Shown here: positions 39,659 through 51,052 of the stretch, piece after piece | Numbering within the stretch: position 1 is the first letter of the stretch | Layout: every line of letters starts with the position of its first letter | Assembly (NCBI GenBank): GCA_012729315.1 | Contig: JAAYDI010000028.1 | Span: 1 to 64,000 of the forward strand | Source of the DNA: Planctomycetaceae bacterium | Lineage (GTDB): Bacteria; Planctomycetota; Planctomycetia; Pirellulales; Pirellulaceae | Reading direction: 5' to 3' | DNA length: 64,000 bases | The notes under the pieces: generated by a model | What the model saw: the letters and a program-made list of their open reading frames with translations, nothing else | What the model was told of the DNA's origin: nothing | Database searches by the model: none | Made by a program: the position numbers and the translations under genes

Positions 39659-40113
39659 TGGTGCAAGCCTCCAACCCCAGTCGCATCTTTACGCCGACCG
39701 AAGCCAACGCGATGCTTCCCCTGGTGCGAGCCATCACGCGGGATCTGGTGCGGTTATCGCGTGAAGTGATTGAGCGTCATCAGCGTGTGGAGCATCTGAA
39801 GGCGGGGCGGAGCATCTCCTTCGGCGATCCGTACGACGAGGAGCTGGCGCAGATCGACGAGGAGTTGACGAAGGACCGGCAGCGTCTGCACGAGTATGTC
39901 CAGGAGCTGCGTCAGCTGGGTGTCGAGCCGAAGAGCAGCGTCGACGGGATCGTGGATTTCCCGGCCATGCTCGACGGAGAGCTGGTGTATCTGTGCTGGA
40001 AGTATGGCGAGCCCGAGGTTGCGCACTGGCACATGCTCGACGGTGGATTTTCAAACCGTCAGCGTCTGACCGACGCCGCGTTGGCGAGCGGTGCGGCCCC
40101 TGGCGTGAACTAG
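39655..40113 (+). CDS. DUF2203 family protein
   Basis: 152 residues. Start ATG 39655 overlaps the nuoI stop (ATGA); ATG 39658 is equally possible. The chain is [20 protein letters not shown], a long charged helix pair, then [20 protein letters not shown] and [12 protein letters not shown]. This is the DUF2203 signature, a small cytoplasmic protein of unknown function often found beside iron-sulfur or respiratory genes. Its translational coupling to nuoI suggests a role linked to complex I, for example in assembly, but that is inference. Confidence 0.85.
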
Positions 40114-40250
40114 CGCGCCGCGCCGTCGTCCACCTTGTCACTGTGCGTTCGCAACCGCGCGCCGGTGGCAACGCCCGCTTGCAAAGCTTCCAGGTCGTCT
40201 TAAAATGCGGGTTCATTTGTCGCTGCTTCCATATCCACAGCGAGCCCGAC

Positions 40251-40931
40251 ATGCTGGATGCTGTCACTTCTTCATTGGGGATCGTGGCCTACTTGGCGCT
40301 GTTCGCGACGACAGGCATCGTGTTCGTGCTGGCTGCGCTGGTCGCAGGTCGCCTGGTGCGTCCGCAGAACCCGATCCCGGAGAAGCTCGACAGCTACGAG
40401 TGCGGCGAGCCGGCGGTGGGCTCGAGTTTCGTGCAGTTCGATCTGCGGTTCTATGTGATCGCGCTGTTATTCATCATTTTCGACGTGGAAGTGGCGTTCT
40501 TCTTCCCGTGGGCGACCGTCTTCGGGAAGGCGCACCACCTGTCGGACACGCGTTCCGGCGCAGCGGTGGTCGCAGCGTCTGATGGGCGTCTGGAGCTGGC
40601 GCCTCGCGCGATCGGCCTGTACCAGGAGCTGGGCGTGCATGAGCCGCTGGTGCCGCGCGACGTGCCGGCCAGTTTGCGGGATCAGGTGAGGGCAAGTGCG
40701 TCGGAGGCGGAGCAGGCCGCGCAAATCGTCCAGCAGGGTGGGCGGCAGCTGGCGCTGGTGGCGCTCGTCGACATCGGGGTCTTCTTCGCGGTGCTGCTGG
40801 TGGGCTTCGCCTACGTCTGGAAGCGCGGCGATCTCAACTGGGTGCGTGCCTACTCCCACCACGACGCGGGCGGCGGCCAACCCGATTCTGCGAGTGATAC
40901 CTGGGATCTGGAGCAGGTGTTGTCCGCGTAG
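40251..40931 (+). CDS. nuoA: NADH-quinone oxidoreductase subunit A, with enlarged loop
   Basis: 226 residues; typical NuoA is about 120-150. TM1 is residues 9-32, the conserved YECGEPAVGSSFVQFD quinone-channel loop follows, and TM2 contains FYVIALLFIIFDVEVAFFFPW. A charged insertion of about 70 residues (from about 92 to 165, KAHHLSDTRSGAA to QQGGRQ) precedes TM3 (LALVALVDIGVFFAVLL). A polar tail ends the chain. No clear ribosome site precedes the ATG. It forms the membrane-arm base near the quinone site. nuoB, usually next, is absent here. Confidence 0.93.
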   Translation: MLDAVTSSLGIVAYLALFATTGIVFVLAALVAGRLVRPQNPIPEKLDSYECGEPAVGSSFVQFDLRFYVIALLFIIFDVEVAFFFPWATVFGKAHHLSDTRSGAAVVAASDGRLELAPRAIGLYQELGVHEPLVPRDVPASLRDQVRASASEAEQAAQIVQQGGRQLALVALVDIGVFFAVLLVGFAYVWKRGDLNWVRAYSHHDAGGGQPDSASDTWDLEQVLSA

Positions 40932-45127: not shown

Positions 45128-47499
45128 TGGACACTTCGCTGTTACCGATACTGCTGGGGATAGCCGTCCTCCTGCCACTGATCTCGTTCTTCGTGATCCT
45201 GGCGGTGGGGCGCTGGTGGCGACCGGTCCTGGGCGGCTATCTGGCGACCGCCGCGATCATGGCAGCGGGGCTGCTGTCGCTGACGAGTCTGGCTATCTGG
45301 CTGTCTCACCATCCGGTCGGCGCGGCAGGGCACCACGCGGCGGACCAGGCCGGACCGTACGTCGGGGACTACTATGTGCTCGGACAGTTCGGCGCGTTGC
45401 GGATCACGATCGGCTATTACATTGACTCGCTGACGATCGTGATGTGCTGCCTGATAACACTGATCGCCACGTGCATTCATGTCTACGCGCTGGGATACAT
45501 GCACGAGGAGCTGCACCCCGTGACGGACCACGAAGTGACGCTCCCAGACGGATCGCCGCTGCGGCGGCCGGGTCGCTTCTCGAACTTCTTCCAGTACATG
45601 TCGCTCTTTTGCTTCAGCATGCTCGGGCTGGTCCTGGCCGGCAACGTGGCGATGGTGTTCGTGTTCTGGGAGCTGGTCGGGATCTGTTCGTATTTCCTGA
45701 TCGGGTTCTACGTCGAGCGGAAGAGCGCTTCGAACGCCGCGAACAAGGCATTCATCGTCAATCGCATCGGCGACTTCGGCATGCTCGTCGGCATGATGGC
45801 CTTGTGGGGCGGCATGGGGACCTTCGCCTTCGGGGATGCCGATCTGAACGGGAATGGGAGCATTGAGCGCTCGGAACGGGGCCTTTTCAGCCTGGTGCGT
45901 CCGGCGGCGCGCGAGCACCAGCTGACCACGCCCGAGGGACTGGTGCTGGCTGACGCTCACGAGGAGCTCCAGCGGTGGGCGTTGGCGCACCCGACCGCGA
46001 CGCGTGGCGACTTCGAGTCGTATGTGGCGGGGGAGCTCGACGACCTGCGCGACGGAGGTCCTGACGGGTCGGGGCGGCGCTACGGCTACTGGCTGTTGGT
46101 GCTGGCGGGCATCGGGATCTTCTGCGGGTGCGTGGGCAAGAGCGCGCAATTCCCGCTGCACGTCTGGCTGCCCGATGCGATGGAGGGTCCCACGCCGGTG
46201 TCGGCGCTGGTCCATTCGGCGACGATGGTCGCGGCGGGCGTCTATCTGGTTGGCCGCTTCTATCCGGTGTTCGCGCCCGAGGTGCTGCTGGTGATCGCCG
46301 TGACGGGGGGCATCACGCTGTTCCTGGCGGCCACCATCGCGCTGACGGCGACGGACATAAAACGGGTCCTGGCATATTCGACGGTCAGTCAGCTCGGGTA
46401 CATGATGCTGGCGCTGGGAGTGGGCGGCTGGCTGGCTGGCATGCTGCACCTGGTCACGCACGCGTTCTTCAAGAGTCTGCTGTTCCTCTGTTCCGGGTCG
46501 GTCATTCACGCGTTGCATTCCAACGAGATGACGGTGATGGGCGGCCTGCGCAAGAAGATGCCGATCACGGCCGCCACGATGCTGGTCGGCTGCCTGGCGA
46601 TCACCGGCCTGAGCATTCCGTTTGTCATCGGCCTGAGTGGCTACTACTCGAAGGACATGATCCTGGAGCAGGCGTTTTCATTTGCGCGGGAGAATCCGGG
46701 GTTATTGGGGGACGGATTCTTCATTGTGGCCGCGGGGGGCGCGGCGATGACCGCCTTCTACATGTTCCGTTTGTGGTTCCTTACATTCGCCGGGGAGCCG
46801 CGGGACGCTCAACGGTACGCGCACGCGCACGAGTCCCCCCGCGTGATGTACGTGCCCCTGATCATCCTGGCGGTGTTCGCAGCGGGGGTGGCGTGGCCGG
46901 CGCCGTTCGGTTGGCCGTCGCTGCAGGGGCTGCTCGAACAGGCCCGCCCAGCCGGAACCGCTGTGACCGCGGTCAGCGCGCACGTGCCGTTCGTGTGGCC
47001 GAGCGAATACATCGCGCACGACGCGGCCAACTACTGGTCGATCGTCGTGCCGGTCACGTGGCTGGCCTTCCTCATGGCCGTCGCCGGGCTGCTGGTCGCC
47101 GTCGCCATGTACGTGACCGGGCAACTCAGCGCGCGGGAGGTCAGCCGGCAGTTCGCGCCGCTCCACCGCTTCCTGCTGCACAAATGGTGGTTTGACGAAC
47201 TGTACGATCTCCTGTTCGTGCGGCCGTTGTACGTGGTGGCCGGTTGGTGCGCCGCGATCGACCGACGCTGGATCGACGGGCTGATCGACCACTCGGCGCG
47301 ATGGACAGCGCGACTGGCGGCGTGGTCGCAGTGGCTGGGCGATCACACCCTGATCGACGGTTTCGTCGATCGGCTGGCTGCCTGGACGTATCGCGTGGGG
47401 GTCTCGTTGCGCAGTCTCCAGACGGGGAGCCTGCGCCAGTATGTCTTGTTCCTGGTCATCGGTGTCGTGGCCGTGTTCCTTATCAGCAGTTTCCTGTGA
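45127..47499 (+). CDS. nuoL: NADH-quinone oxidoreductase subunit L with EF-hand-like insertion
   Basis: 790 residues versus about 610 in E. coli. NuoL is the distal antiporter-like proton pump, with the long lateral helix. Family core: FVFWELVGICSYFLIGFY, GKSAQFPLHVWLPDAMEGPT, PVSALVHSATMVAAGVYL and LAYSTVSQLGYMMLALG. An insertion of about 75 residues (about 235-315) in the loop before GKSAQ contains DLNGNGSIERSE at 239-250, a full EF-hand loop. The C-terminal part (from about 590) holds the lateral helix and anchors (KWWFDELYDLLFVRPL). Starts on the last base of the nuoK stop. Confidence 0.95.
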   Translation: MDTSLLPILLGIAVLLPLISFFVILAVGRWWRPVLGGYLATAAIMAAGLLSLTSLAIWLSHHPVGAAGHHAADQAGPYVGDYYVLGQFGALRITIGYYIDSLTIVMCCLITLIATCIHVYALGYMHEELHPVTDHEVTLPDGSPLRRPGRFSNFFQYMSLFCFSMLGLVLAGNVAMVFVFWELVGICSYFLIGFYVERKSASNAANKAFIVNRIGDFGMLVGMMALWGGMGTFAFGDADLNGNGSIERSERGLFSLVRPAAREHQLTTPEGLVLADAHEELQRWALAHPTATRGDFESYVAGELDDLRDGGPDGSGRRYGYWLLVLAGIGIFCGCVGKSAQFPLHVWLPDAMEGPTPVSALVHSATMVAAGVYLVGRFYPVFAPEVLLVIAVTGGITLFLAATIALTATDIKRVLAYSTVSQLGYMMLALGVGGWLAGMLHLVTHAFFKSLLFLCSGSVIHALHSNEMTVMGGLRKKMPITAATMLVGCLAITGLSIPFVIGLSGYYSKDMILEQAFSFARENPGLLGDGFFIVAAGGAAMTAFYMFRLWFLTFAGEPRDAQRYAHAHESPRVMYVPLIILAVFAAGVAWPAPFGWPSLQGLLEQARPAGTAVTAVSAHVPFVWPSEYIAHDAANYWSIVVPVTWLAFLMAVAGLLVAVAMYVTGQLSAREVSRQFAPLHRFLLHKWWFDELYDLLFVRPLYVVAGWCAAIDRRWIDGLIDHSARWTARLAAWSQWLGDHTLIDGFVDRLAAWTYRVGVSLRSLQTGSLRQYVLFLVIGVVAVFLISSFL

Positions 47500-47504
47500 A
47501 CGCT

Positions 47505-49244
47505 ATGAACGCATCCGTATTGTGGCTGAGCCTGATCGTCTTCCTGCCCATGGCCGGCGCGCTGGTGATTGCGTGTCTGCCGCGGGCGCGCGTGGAGTTC
47601 CTGCGATATGTCGCCCTGCTGATAACCGCGGCGACGTTCCTGATCTCCCTCGGCGCACTGCTGTGCCCCGAGTCGGAGGTCCACTTCCAGACGAACCTGG
47701 GAACGATGCAGAACGCGTTCGTGCTCGACTGGATCCCCTCGTTCGACATTGCCTACGCGTTGGGCGTCGATGGGATCAGCCTGCCGCTGGTCATCCTCAC
47801 GACGTTCATCAGTCTGCTGGCCATGGCGGCCAGCTGGTCGGTGACCAAGTACGTCAAAGCGTACTGCATCCTGTTCCTGATCCTGGAAACCGCGATGATC
47901 GGCGTCTTCCTGGCGCTCGACTTCATCCTGTTCTACGTGTTCTGGGAGGTGATGCTGCTGCCGATGTACTTCCTGATCGGCGTCTGGGGGGGGCCGCGGC
48001 GCGAATACGCGGCAATCAAGTTCTTCCTGTACACGCTGGTCGGCGGCGTGCTGATGCTCATCGCGATCCTGATGCTGTATTTCAAGAGCGACCTGCGTGC
48101 CGTGGCCGAGGTATCGGACCTGCTGGACAAGACCCCGCACCCAGTGGTCACCTGGAGCGATCTGCACGTGTCGGACGCGGTGACAGCGCAGCTGCGGGAG
48201 GATCCCACCAACGGCGGCCAGCCGCTGCACACATTCAACATCCTGGCGTTGGCGGCCATGGGGCAGCACACCGAGGTATTCAGCCACCAGTGGCAGTGGT
48301 GGGCGTTTCTGCTGTTGTTCATCGGGTTTATCATCAAGGTCCCATCGGTACCGCTGCACACGTGGTTGCCCGATGCGCACGTGGAGGCCCCGACGCCGAT
48401 CTCGATGATCCTGGCGGGGGTGCTGCTGAAGATGGGGGGCTATGGCATCATTCGCTTCTGTTATCCCATCTGCCCCTTCGGCGGCTACGACCTGGCGTAT
48501 GTCGTGTGTGCCATCGGCGTACTCAGCATGGTGTATGGCGGGTTGGCCGCACTGGCGCAGGCCGATTTCAAGCGACTGGTGGCGTACAGCAGCGTGAGTC
48601 ACATGGGATACGTGGTGCTGGGACTGGGCGTGTGGTCGGTGACCTTCCCCGGCTACAACGCCGACTACTGGAACATGGGGGTCCAGGGAGCCATGTTCCA
48701 GATGGTGGCGCACGGGATCAGTTCGGCCGGCATGTTCTTTATGGTCGGCGTTGTGTACGACCGCGTGCACCATCGCCAACTGAACGAGTTCGGGGGGCTG
48801 TTCGGTCGGATGCCGGTCTACACGGCGCTGTCGATTGGCATCTTCTTCGCAGCCCTCGGGCTGCCCGGGCTGTGTGGCTTCATCGGGGAAGTGCTCGTGG
48901 TACTGTCGGTGTGGAATTTCGACCGGATCCTGGCGGTGGTGGCGGCGTCGGTAATGGTGCTGACCGCTGGCTACATTCTGTGGACGATTCAACGTGTGTA
49001 CCTGGGGGCCGAGTACCGCGGCCCGCACGTCGAGGCGTTGCGGCCCAGCACGGTGCGGGAGAACTTGATCGCCGGAGCATTGTTTGTGCTGGCCATCCTG
49101 CTGGGGGTGTTCCCGCAGACGTTCGTGCTGCGGTACACGGACCGCACGATCGGCCGCCAGGTTGAGTCGTTGGCACAGTGGACGGAGCGTGTGGCCACAC
49201 CCCAGATGGTGTCGGCATCGCCGCAGACGAATCCCGTGGACTAG
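47505..49244 (+). CDS. nuoM: NADH-quinone oxidoreductase subunit M
   Basis: 579 residues; ATG 47505, with a GTG at 47496 overlapping the nuoL stop as alternative. Antiporter-like subunit with about 14 helices. Conserved: FWEVMLLPMYFLIGVWGGPRR, HTWLPDAHVEAPTPISMILA, LVAYSSVSHMGYVVLG and GLPGLCGFIGE. A loop of about 60 residues (SDLLDKTPHPVVTWSDL to HQWQWW) is longer than in E. coli. Membrane-arm proton channel. Large minus-strand frames here are shadows. Confidence 0.96.
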   Translation: MNASVLWLSLIVFLPMAGALVIACLPRARVEFLRYVALLITAATFLISLGALLCPESEVHFQTNLGTMQNAFVLDWIPSFDIAYALGVDGISLPLVILTTFISLLAMAASWSVTKYVKAYCILFLILETAMIGVFLALDFILFYVFWEVMLLPMYFLIGVWGGPRREYAAIKFFLYTLVGGVLMLIAILMLYFKSDLRAVAEVSDLLDKTPHPVVTWSDLHVSDAVTAQLREDPTNGGQPLHTFNILALAAMGQHTEVFSHQWQWWAFLLLFIGFIIKVPSVPLHTWLPDAHVEAPTPISMILAGVLLKMGGYGIIRFCYPICPFGGYDLAYVVCAIGVLSMVYGGLAALAQADFKRLVAYSSVSHMGYVVLGLGVWSVTFPGYNADYWNMGVQGAMFQMVAHGISSAGMFFMVGVVYDRVHHRQLNEFGGLFGRMPVYTALSIGIFFAALGLPGLCGFIGEVLVVLSVWNFDRILAVVAASVMVLTAGYILWTIQRVYLGAEYRGPHVEALRPSTVRENLIAGALFVLAILLGVFPQTFVLRYTDRTIGRQVESLAQWTERVATPQMVSASPQTNPVD

Positions 49245-49255
49245 AGAGTACGCGT

Positions 49256-51052
49256 GTGAACCTTCACGATCTTGTCAGCCAGTTGATCATCGATACCACG
49301 GGCTCGCCGGGCGGGGGCATCTGGCATGCCACGTGGGATTCGAGTCTGGGAGTGTTCCGTCCCGAGTTGGTCCTCTGCGGGACGATTCTCCTGGTGTTGT
49401 TGTGCCGCCTGTTCCGCGCGACGCGGTGGGTGGACGCGGCCTGGATCGCGTGCGCGGGGGCAGTGCTGGCGCTGTGGTGGGCCGCTCCCTGGCGCCTGCT
49501 GACTGACCCGGCGCCGTTCGCGCGGATGGAGATCTTCACGGGCATGCTCGTGTACGACGGCTTCACGGCGCTGATGCGGGGGGTGTTGCTGACCTTCTTC
49601 GTCCTGTTCGTCATCCTGACGAAGCTGTCGGGGGTCCCGGCCCGGGAGGACGGCCCCGACGTGTACGTCCTGGCGCTCGGTGCCACGCTGGGTTTCTGCC
49701 TGATGGTGGCGGCCAATCATCTGATGATGGTGTTTCTGGCGGTGGAGATGGCCAGCGTCCCGTCCTATGCGTTGGCCGGCTTGCTGCGGCGCGATCGGCG
49801 TTCGAGCGAGGCGTCGCTCAAGTACGCCGTCTATGGAGCCGGGGCGGCCGGGATCATGCTCTACGGGATCAGCTTGATCGCCGGGCTCGTCAATGCAGTC
49901 CACCTGCCCACGGTGGCGTTGCGGCTGTCCCAGGCCCTGCCTGCGATGAACATCGACGAGCTGACCGTCCTGGGGCTGGCCTGCCTGCTGATCACCGTGG
50001 GGCTGGCGTTCAAGTTGTCGGCGGTCCCGTTCCACTTCTGGTGTCCGGACGTATTTGAAGGGGCCACTGCGGAGATCGGCGCTTTCCTGAGTGTCGCCTC
50101 GAAGGCCGCGGCCTTGGCGCTGCTGGTGCGGGTGGTAGTTGGCCTCGGCTGGCTGAGCCCCACCGGCTTCATGCCTGGCGAACGGACCCTGGCCGCCGGC
50201 GCGGCGGCCAACCAGGTGTCGCTGGCGGGCGGATTCCTGTCGGTTGCAGATGCGGTGCCAGGATCACCGGCCGGTGGCGGACAGGCCGGGTTACCGCCGG
50301 ATGCTGACCGCCTGGACCGGGCGGCCTGCAACAGCAATCTGGCACCGCTGCGGTCCGTGGTGAGCCGGTTAGTGGCGTTGCTGGCCATCGTCACCTGCAC
50401 CTTCGGCAATCTGGCCGCTTACGGTCAGACGAACATGAAGCGTCTGCTGGCGTATTCGACGATAGCGCATGCGGGCTACATGATGATGGCCGCGCCGCCG
50501 ATCCTTGCGCTGCTCGGATCGGACGCGCACGGAGCCCAGGGAGGGGTGGCAGCGCTGGTCCTGTATATCACGGTCTACCTGTTCATGAATCTCGGCGCGT
50601 TTGCCGTCGTCGCCTTGCTGCGTGAGGCGATGCACAGCGAGGAGATTGCGGACTATGCCGGCCTGCTCCGCCGCTGTCCCGGCGTAGCCATCTGCTTTGC
50701 GTTGATACTGTTGAGCCTGATCGGCCTGCCACCGCTGTCCGGCTTCCTCGGTAAGCTGGCCGTCTTCGCCGCACTGACCGATGCCTTCCGGACGACGGGC
50801 AGTGCCTACCTGATGGTGGTGCTGTTCGTGGGCGGCCTGAACACTGTCCTCAGCCTGTTTTATTATCTCCGTATTGTCCGCTTGATGACGATGGTGCCGG
50901 AACCGGAGTCACGTGTACCGTTCGCGCTTCCCCTGGCGTCGCTGCCCGGCGCGTATCTGCTGGTCATAACGCTCCCCACAGTGCTGCTGATCCTGGGCTG
51001 GGAGTACGTGAGCGCTTTGGCGCTGGCCGCGGCGCGATCGCTCTTCGTATGA
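49256..51052 (+). CDS. nuoN: NADH-quinone oxidoreductase subunit N
   Basis: 598 residues from GTG 49256, 11 bases after the nuoM stop and preceded by AGAGAG. Third antiporter-like subunit. Motifs: FLAVEMASVPSYALAGLLRRD, PFHFWCPDVFEGATAEIGAF, KRLLAYSTIAHAGYMM and GLPPLSGFLGKLAVF. A Gly/Ala/Pro-rich insertion of about 70 residues (from GERTLAAGAAAN to NSNLAPLRSV) interrupts the loop after the fifth to sixth helix pair. Last gene of the nuo operon. Confidence 0.95.
   Translation: MNLHDLVSQLIIDTTGSPGGGIWHATWDSSLGVFRPELVLCGTILLVLLCRLFRATRWVDAAWIACAGAVLALWWAAPWRLLTDPAPFARMEIFTGMLVYDGFTALMRGVLLTFFVLFVILTKLSGVPAREDGPDVYVLALGATLGFCLMVAANHLMMVFLAVEMASVPSYALAGLLRRDRRSSEASLKYAVYGAGAAGIMLYGISLIAGLVNAVHLPTVALRLSQALPAMNIDELTVLGLACLLITVGLAFKLSAVPFHFWCPDVFEGATAEIGAFLSVASKAAALALLVRVVVGLGWLSPTGFMPGERTLAAGAAANQVSLAGGFLSVADAVPGSPAGGGQAGLPPDADRLDRAACNSNLAPLRSVVSRLVALLAIVTCTFGNLAAYGQTNMKRLLAYSTIAHAGYMMMAAPPILALLGSDAHGAQGGVAALVLYITVYLFMNLGAFAVVALLREAMHSEEIADYAGLLRRCPGVAICFALILLSLIGLPPLSGFLGKLAVFAALTDAFRTTGSAYLMVVLFVGGLNTVLSLFYYLRIVRLMTMVPEPESRVPFALPLASLPGAYLLVITLPTVLLILGWEYVSALALAAARSLFV

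Follow-up and report, generated by a model that had tools for sequence, protein, structure and literature searches.

Calcium loops of the Dx[DN]xDG type recur by convergence in unrelated folds and in many non-EF contexts, and according to Rigden and Galperin (PMC3123361) some of them lie in inserts and most are extracytoplasmic, where calcium is abundant. The same paper describes a single Dx[DN]xDG loop which, set between two beta-strands of CD2, sufficed for a Ca2+ site. Bacterial complex I is also already known to contain calcium: in NuoG of Escherichia coli a Ca2+ ion stabilises a lineage-specific loop, and divalent ions increase the activity and stability of this complex (PMC8357420). The initial annotation of the DNA considered here had called calcium on bacterial complex I unusual, a statement that needs qualifying in view of NuoG, although this subunit belongs to the peripheral arm (PMC8357420). 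In the open-licence literature, no paper was found on a calcium site in the membrane arm of complex I, and the two papers containing both NuoL and EF-hand, judged by titles and counts, comprised passing mentions only.

In this study, we analyzed an EF-hand-like loop in the NuoL protein encoded in a 64,000-nucleotide stretch of a Planctomycetaceae genome (the window, meaning the whole stretch that was analyzed), which its named relatives assign to Pirellulales, Planctomycetota. The loop is probably a structural calcium loop of the Dx[DN]xDG type in a new setting, an antiporter-like subunit of complex I.

The nuoL gene and its TM6-TM7 insert

The nuoL gene of the window sits in a complex I cluster, nuoI-A-C-D-H-J-K-L-M-N, the neighbours having been scored by family. 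Its product scored 587.6 bits against the 556 cut-off of the NCBIfam equivalog model NF005141, as expected of a NuoL, and the top 50 fold matches were all NuoL, NdhF or ND5 chains. The solved NuoL/NdhF/ND5 structures (e.g. 8qby_L, 6hum_F and 3rko) share with it the fold and the conserved channel residues, and G337, K338, S339, A340 and Q341 occupy invariant alignment columns. The features are listed in Table 1.

Table 1 Features of the window nuoL gene, and EF-type loops at the homologous site
Feature	Positions	Strand	Basis
nuoL, NADH-quinone oxidoreductase subunit L, 790 aa	45127..47499	+	ORF; NCBIfam NF005141; Pfam Proton_antipo_M/N
Lineage-specific insert, TM6-TM7 loop, residues ~232-320, predicted periplasmic	45820..46086	+	gap in phmmer alignments to solved NuoL/NdhF/ND5; model; topology
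EF-type 12-residue loop DLNGNGSIERSE, NuoL residues 239-250	45841..45876	+	translation; same-site matches in 11 relatives; shuffle test
RGLFSLVRP, conserved stretch with short helix right after the EF-type loop	45877..45903	+	alignment; DSSP helix 253-257
GKSAQ on TM7, with conserved proton-channel lysine K338	46135..46149	+	invariant columns
EF-type loops, part 1: G000 DLNGNGSIERSE, G001 DRDGNGTIEPAE, G116 DASGNGTIEKAE, G023 DANSNGTIEADE
EF-type loops, part 2: G222 DANGDGKVEGTE, G019 DRNGDGTIAASE, G085 DRNENGTLEPNE, G084 DRNGDGKLDPHE
EF-type loops, part 3: G086 DRNADGKLDANE, G229 DLNKDGQIDQSE, G096 DADKSGSIEPAE, G050 DLDKDGTIAQSE

In an AlphaFold model of NuoL, TM6 spans residues 199-230 and TM7 residues 321-338, and the insert joins the two. 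The phmmer alignment with Thermosynechococcus NdhF (6hum_F) stops at residue 237 and restarts at 325, corresponding to 207 and 227 in that chain, and the other solved chains align only on either side of the insert. Because 87 residues (238-324) here face about 19 (208-226) in 6hum_F, the insert was estimated at ~65-70 residues, rather than the 75 given in the initial annotation. The EF-type loop is placed at the start of the insert and, as had been noted, ahead of GKSAQ (239-250 vs 337-341). Between NRxGD and GKSAQ, the 162 distinct Pirellulales segments span a median of 122 residues, versus 67 for 52 segments from elsewhere, and in this sequence sample the insert is specific to the Pirellulales lineage. 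A G[IL]FSxVRP stretch equivalent to that following the loop is also found in relatives without the EF loop.

NuoL has its N-terminus outside. Given this topology and the positively charged TM5-TM6 loop of the window protein (YVERKSASNAANK), the TM6-TM7 loop is predicted to be periplasmic, so that the insert and the EF-type loop should be on the periplasmic side, in agreement with the outward-facing position proposed initially.

Several other peculiarities of length and composition were recorded. In NuoM (47244-49244), a second antiporter-like subunit, the equivalent TM6-TM7 loop is enlarged too (EVSDLLDKTPHPVV...GQHTEVFSHQW); in NuoN (49178-51052) a long extra stretch, at about residues 323-390 of the ORF, divides the family matches in two; and in the NuoA-type ORF (39993-40931) the NuoA match covers residues 97-179 of 312, the C-terminal part beyond it being unmatched. 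Among other Pirellulales NuoL proteins (L030, L049, L048, L181 and L044), there are open frames of 994-1077 aa that have also grown in places other than the TM6-TM7 loop, and some of these relatives carry His/Asp/Glu-rich inserts that look metal-binding, e.g. HEDGEHADEHGEGHTDGD in L044. The genome of the window itself (G000) contains two further NuoL/M/N-like antiporter sets (C25:15581-20364 and C90:69978-74107); the EF pattern is absent from the NuoL-like protein of C25, whose TM6-TM7 loop is unrelated.

The EF-type loop and its distribution in Pirellulales

Translation of the loop confirmed the initial reading that its residues satisfy the 12-residue ligand pattern of EF-hands. Window frames of at least 100 residues (65,161 residues in total) contained a single match to the strict pattern D-x-[DNS]-x-[DNS]-G-x-[ILV]-x3-E. 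Among 225 NuoL-like sequences (170,659 residues), 13 strict matches were obtained. Twelve of these share a homologous position; the thirteenth, DGDESGLFSQME in G256, lies out of register (offset 26) and was taken as chance. When residues were shuffled within the loops, a mean of 0.007 matches and a maximum of 1 was reached in 2000 rounds, as against the 12 observed. On this sequence evidence the EF-type loop is not a chance match.

The full 12-residue loop thus occurs at exactly the same position in 12 of the 162 distinct Pirellulales TM6-TM7 segments, which come from an evenly drawn, non-exhaustive sample including many MAGs, with regions taken mostly from better-scoring matches. Positions 1, 6 and 12 are D, G and E in all 12, positions 3 and 5 are only N, D or S, and positions 2, 4, 7, 10 and 11 are variable, the constancy of the ligands being partly due to selection on the pattern. 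Likewise, pairwise identity is 71% at positions 1, 3, 5 and 12, versus 25% at non-ligand positions and 29% in the rest of the insert, a contrast partly built in because the set was picked by pattern. Loops of the Dx[DN]xDG class follow D-x-[DN]-x-D-G, now and then with Asn, and add a main-chain ligand at position 7 and an acidic ligand further on. Position 5 is Asp in 6 of the 12; in the window loop (DLNGNG) positions 3 and 5 are both Asn and E250 is present, and with so few charged ligands its affinity would probably be low.

Retention within genera is not part of the pattern selection: every NuoL found in three genera has the loop (2/2 in g1, 4/4 in g19 and 2/2 in g23), including two g1 proteins that are ~0.5 changes per site apart. 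No NuoL was found in the second genome of the family of G050. The initial annotation had made conservation among relatives decisive for the site, and here the outcome was divided, since the ligand spacing is exact in 12 sequences while the letters between the ligands change, and 150 of the 162 Pirellulales segments (~93%), including the nearest sisters G062 and G025, are without the loop, which is therefore optional. No EF loop was found in NuoL of other phyla (52 distinct segments).

The loop site is especially prone to changes in length, from 0 to 25 residues, and most relatives have shorter or hairpin-like turns around xDG there. Among 41 loops of length 15 (some EF loops being printed with an extra leading FG, i.e. 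17 letters), 12 are EF-type and 29 hairpin-like, e.g. DAQVAGPDGSVVTTP. In G021, G049, G299 and G262 the same site has a shortened DxDxDG turn that lacks Glu at position 12, and near-versions of the loop such as DTDGDGTAEPG and DADGDGTPEPG were also recorded. Judged by their sequences, such shortened turns may be intermediates in the gain or loss of the motif.

A tree was built from the core columns, excluding the insert; it came from a quick search, with 58 of 140 branches open and uneven support. On this tree the 12 sequences fall at about five places, and the EF label requires 6 changes compared with 11.6 after shuffling (0 of 500 shuffles as low), indicating that the loop is clustered. The starred branches alone force at least 4 gains or losses; at this level of sequence evidence, gain and loss of the loop are not firmly separable on the tree. 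From alignment and tree together, the EF-type loop is real and recurs in some Pirellulales, with a patchy distribution and without conservation across the group.

Predicted structure and interpretation of the loop

The AlphaFold model was built with 74 relatives, and a second, separate model covered residues 224-336. The insert had a pLDDT of ~90-97 in the blocks covering 231-310 and the EF-type loop ~91, values to be read with the possibility that AlphaFold reproduces memorised EF loops. Both models agree on a coil at 231-247 with one bridge residue, a helix at 248-250, a break at 251-252 and a helix at 253-257. As in EF loops, the exiting helix begins at position 10 of the loop (residue 248); no helix directly enters the loop in the model, in which TM6 ends at residue 230, eight residues earlier. 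No further EF pattern exists in NuoL with which the loop could pair. The 13-position EF-hand pattern places a hydrophobic residue after the loop; it is matched by only 2 of the 12 loops, the window protein having R251 there. With Pfam EF-hand_5 (PF13202) the full protein scored 11.5 bits, its insert 14.6 and the best relative 20.3, all below the 25.9 cut-off, and true EF-hand matches are present elsewhere in the host genome.

Searches with the whole insert by Foldseek and VIA gave weak HMG-box-like or other helical matches (best E 5, Z 4.6) and no EF-hand, which for a single loop speaks neither for nor against such a fold, and the insert profile had zero matches against PDB sequences. When a 34-residue piece was compared with PDB sequences, all 14 matches were by name EF-hand or dockerin-type calcium proteins; these were weak (best E 0.013) and, in the alignments shown, in phase. 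By these tests, membership of the EF-hand family was rejected for lack of an adjacent helix pair in the models, of a second hand and of a Pfam score near the cut-off, the fold searches having listed no EF-hand either. In the predictions, the EF-like geometry anticipated initially was borne out for the confident loop followed by a helix from position 10, and not for the helix pair.

Calcium binding by this loop, in the manner of an EF-hand though outside the EF-hand family, is plausible, and the membrane side fits calcium chemistry. We infer metal binding, the identity of the metal and a stabilising role, and favour, at a probability of roughly 0.6, a Ca2+ ion serving as a structural staple at the base of the periplasmic insert. 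The loop, whether gained or retained at the entrance to the Pirellulales-specific insert, would hold one periplasmic Ca2+; the proposed ligands are D239, N241 and N243, together with S245 through its main chain, E247 through a water molecule and E250 through two oxygens. The bound ion would stiffen the turn between TM6 and the insert, hold in place the short helix that begins at position 10 of the loop and so act as a staple on the subunit's outer face.

The main rival, which we consider unlikely without dismissing it, is a metal-free surface turn rich in Asp, Asn and Gly, at a site that tolerates hydrophilic turns of varied length, some of them resembling EF loops. The variation in length, the predominance of hairpin-like turns among the length-15 loops, the absence of the pattern from most relatives and the shortened near-versions would all agree with it, whereas such a turn would hardly account for a pattern that shuffled loop residues almost never yield, for spacing kept exact through Glu12 in 12 sequences at about five places on the tree, or for a loop kept by all members found of three genera.

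Two further readings accept a metal. The initial annotation had suggested tuning of the membrane arm, and a regulatory site, at which periplasmic Ca2+ would alter the linker between TM6 and TM7 and thereby adjust the proton pumping of NuoL, could draw on the position of the loop between TM6 and the TM7 helix carrying K338. This proposal found no support and appears improbable: there is one unpaired loop, no connection between the insert and the proton path is apparent, most close relatives have the same core without the loop, and no periplasmic calcium signal is known. Binding of another divalent ion, Mg2+ or Mn2+, instead of Ca2+ seems the most remote of the readings. EF-type loops poor in acidic ligands can bind Mg2+, and the effect of divalent ions on E. 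coli complex I mentioned above points the same way, whereas Glu12, present in all 12 loops, is the residue that binds Ca2+ in bidentate fashion in canonical EF loops, and Mg2+ selectivity is usually accompanied by Asp12.

Comparison with known calcium sites

The canonical EF-hand (PF00036/PF13202, calmodulin-type) resembles the window loop in the 12-residue loop, Gly6, Ile8, Glu12 and the helix from position 10; it differs in that the window loop is unpaired, has no adjoining entering helix, has R251 at position 13, where a hydrophobic residue would be expected, and scores 11.5-14.6 against 25.9 in Pfam. The Ca2+ site of E. coli NuoG is similar in that its calcium, like the one proposed here for NuoL, stabilises a lineage-specific loop within bacterial complex I; it differs in belonging to the peripheral arm on the cytoplasmic side, with ligands far apart in sequence (D617, Q632, E647 and D731) and no EF pattern (PMC8357420). 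That several Pirellulales lineages independently built a periplasmic EF-like site through which Ca2+ from outside would stabilise the membrane arm or modulate it, the first EF-type site there, is a reading that we regard as doubtful.

If calcium is bound, a Dx[DN]xDG loop would be evolving inside an essential respiratory pump, and a calcium-dependent stability of complex I should be measurable in these bacteria. The hairpin turns, shortened DxDxDG turns and full EF-type loops at one homologous position may form an intermediate series, of the kind which Rigden et al. sought and found hard to study (PMC3123361).

The contexts named in the available text of PMC3123361 include no respiratory complex I subunit, and the window loop differs from the loops described there in its Asn5 and in the putative nature of its binding. 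The likenesses are the D1-x-N3-x-x5-G6-x-I8 spacing with a later acidic ligand, and a lineage-specific insert in an extracytoplasmic loop, sporadic within its family. The Dx[DN]xDG class is the best fit for the window loop, whose site, membrane side and patchy spread all agree with it.
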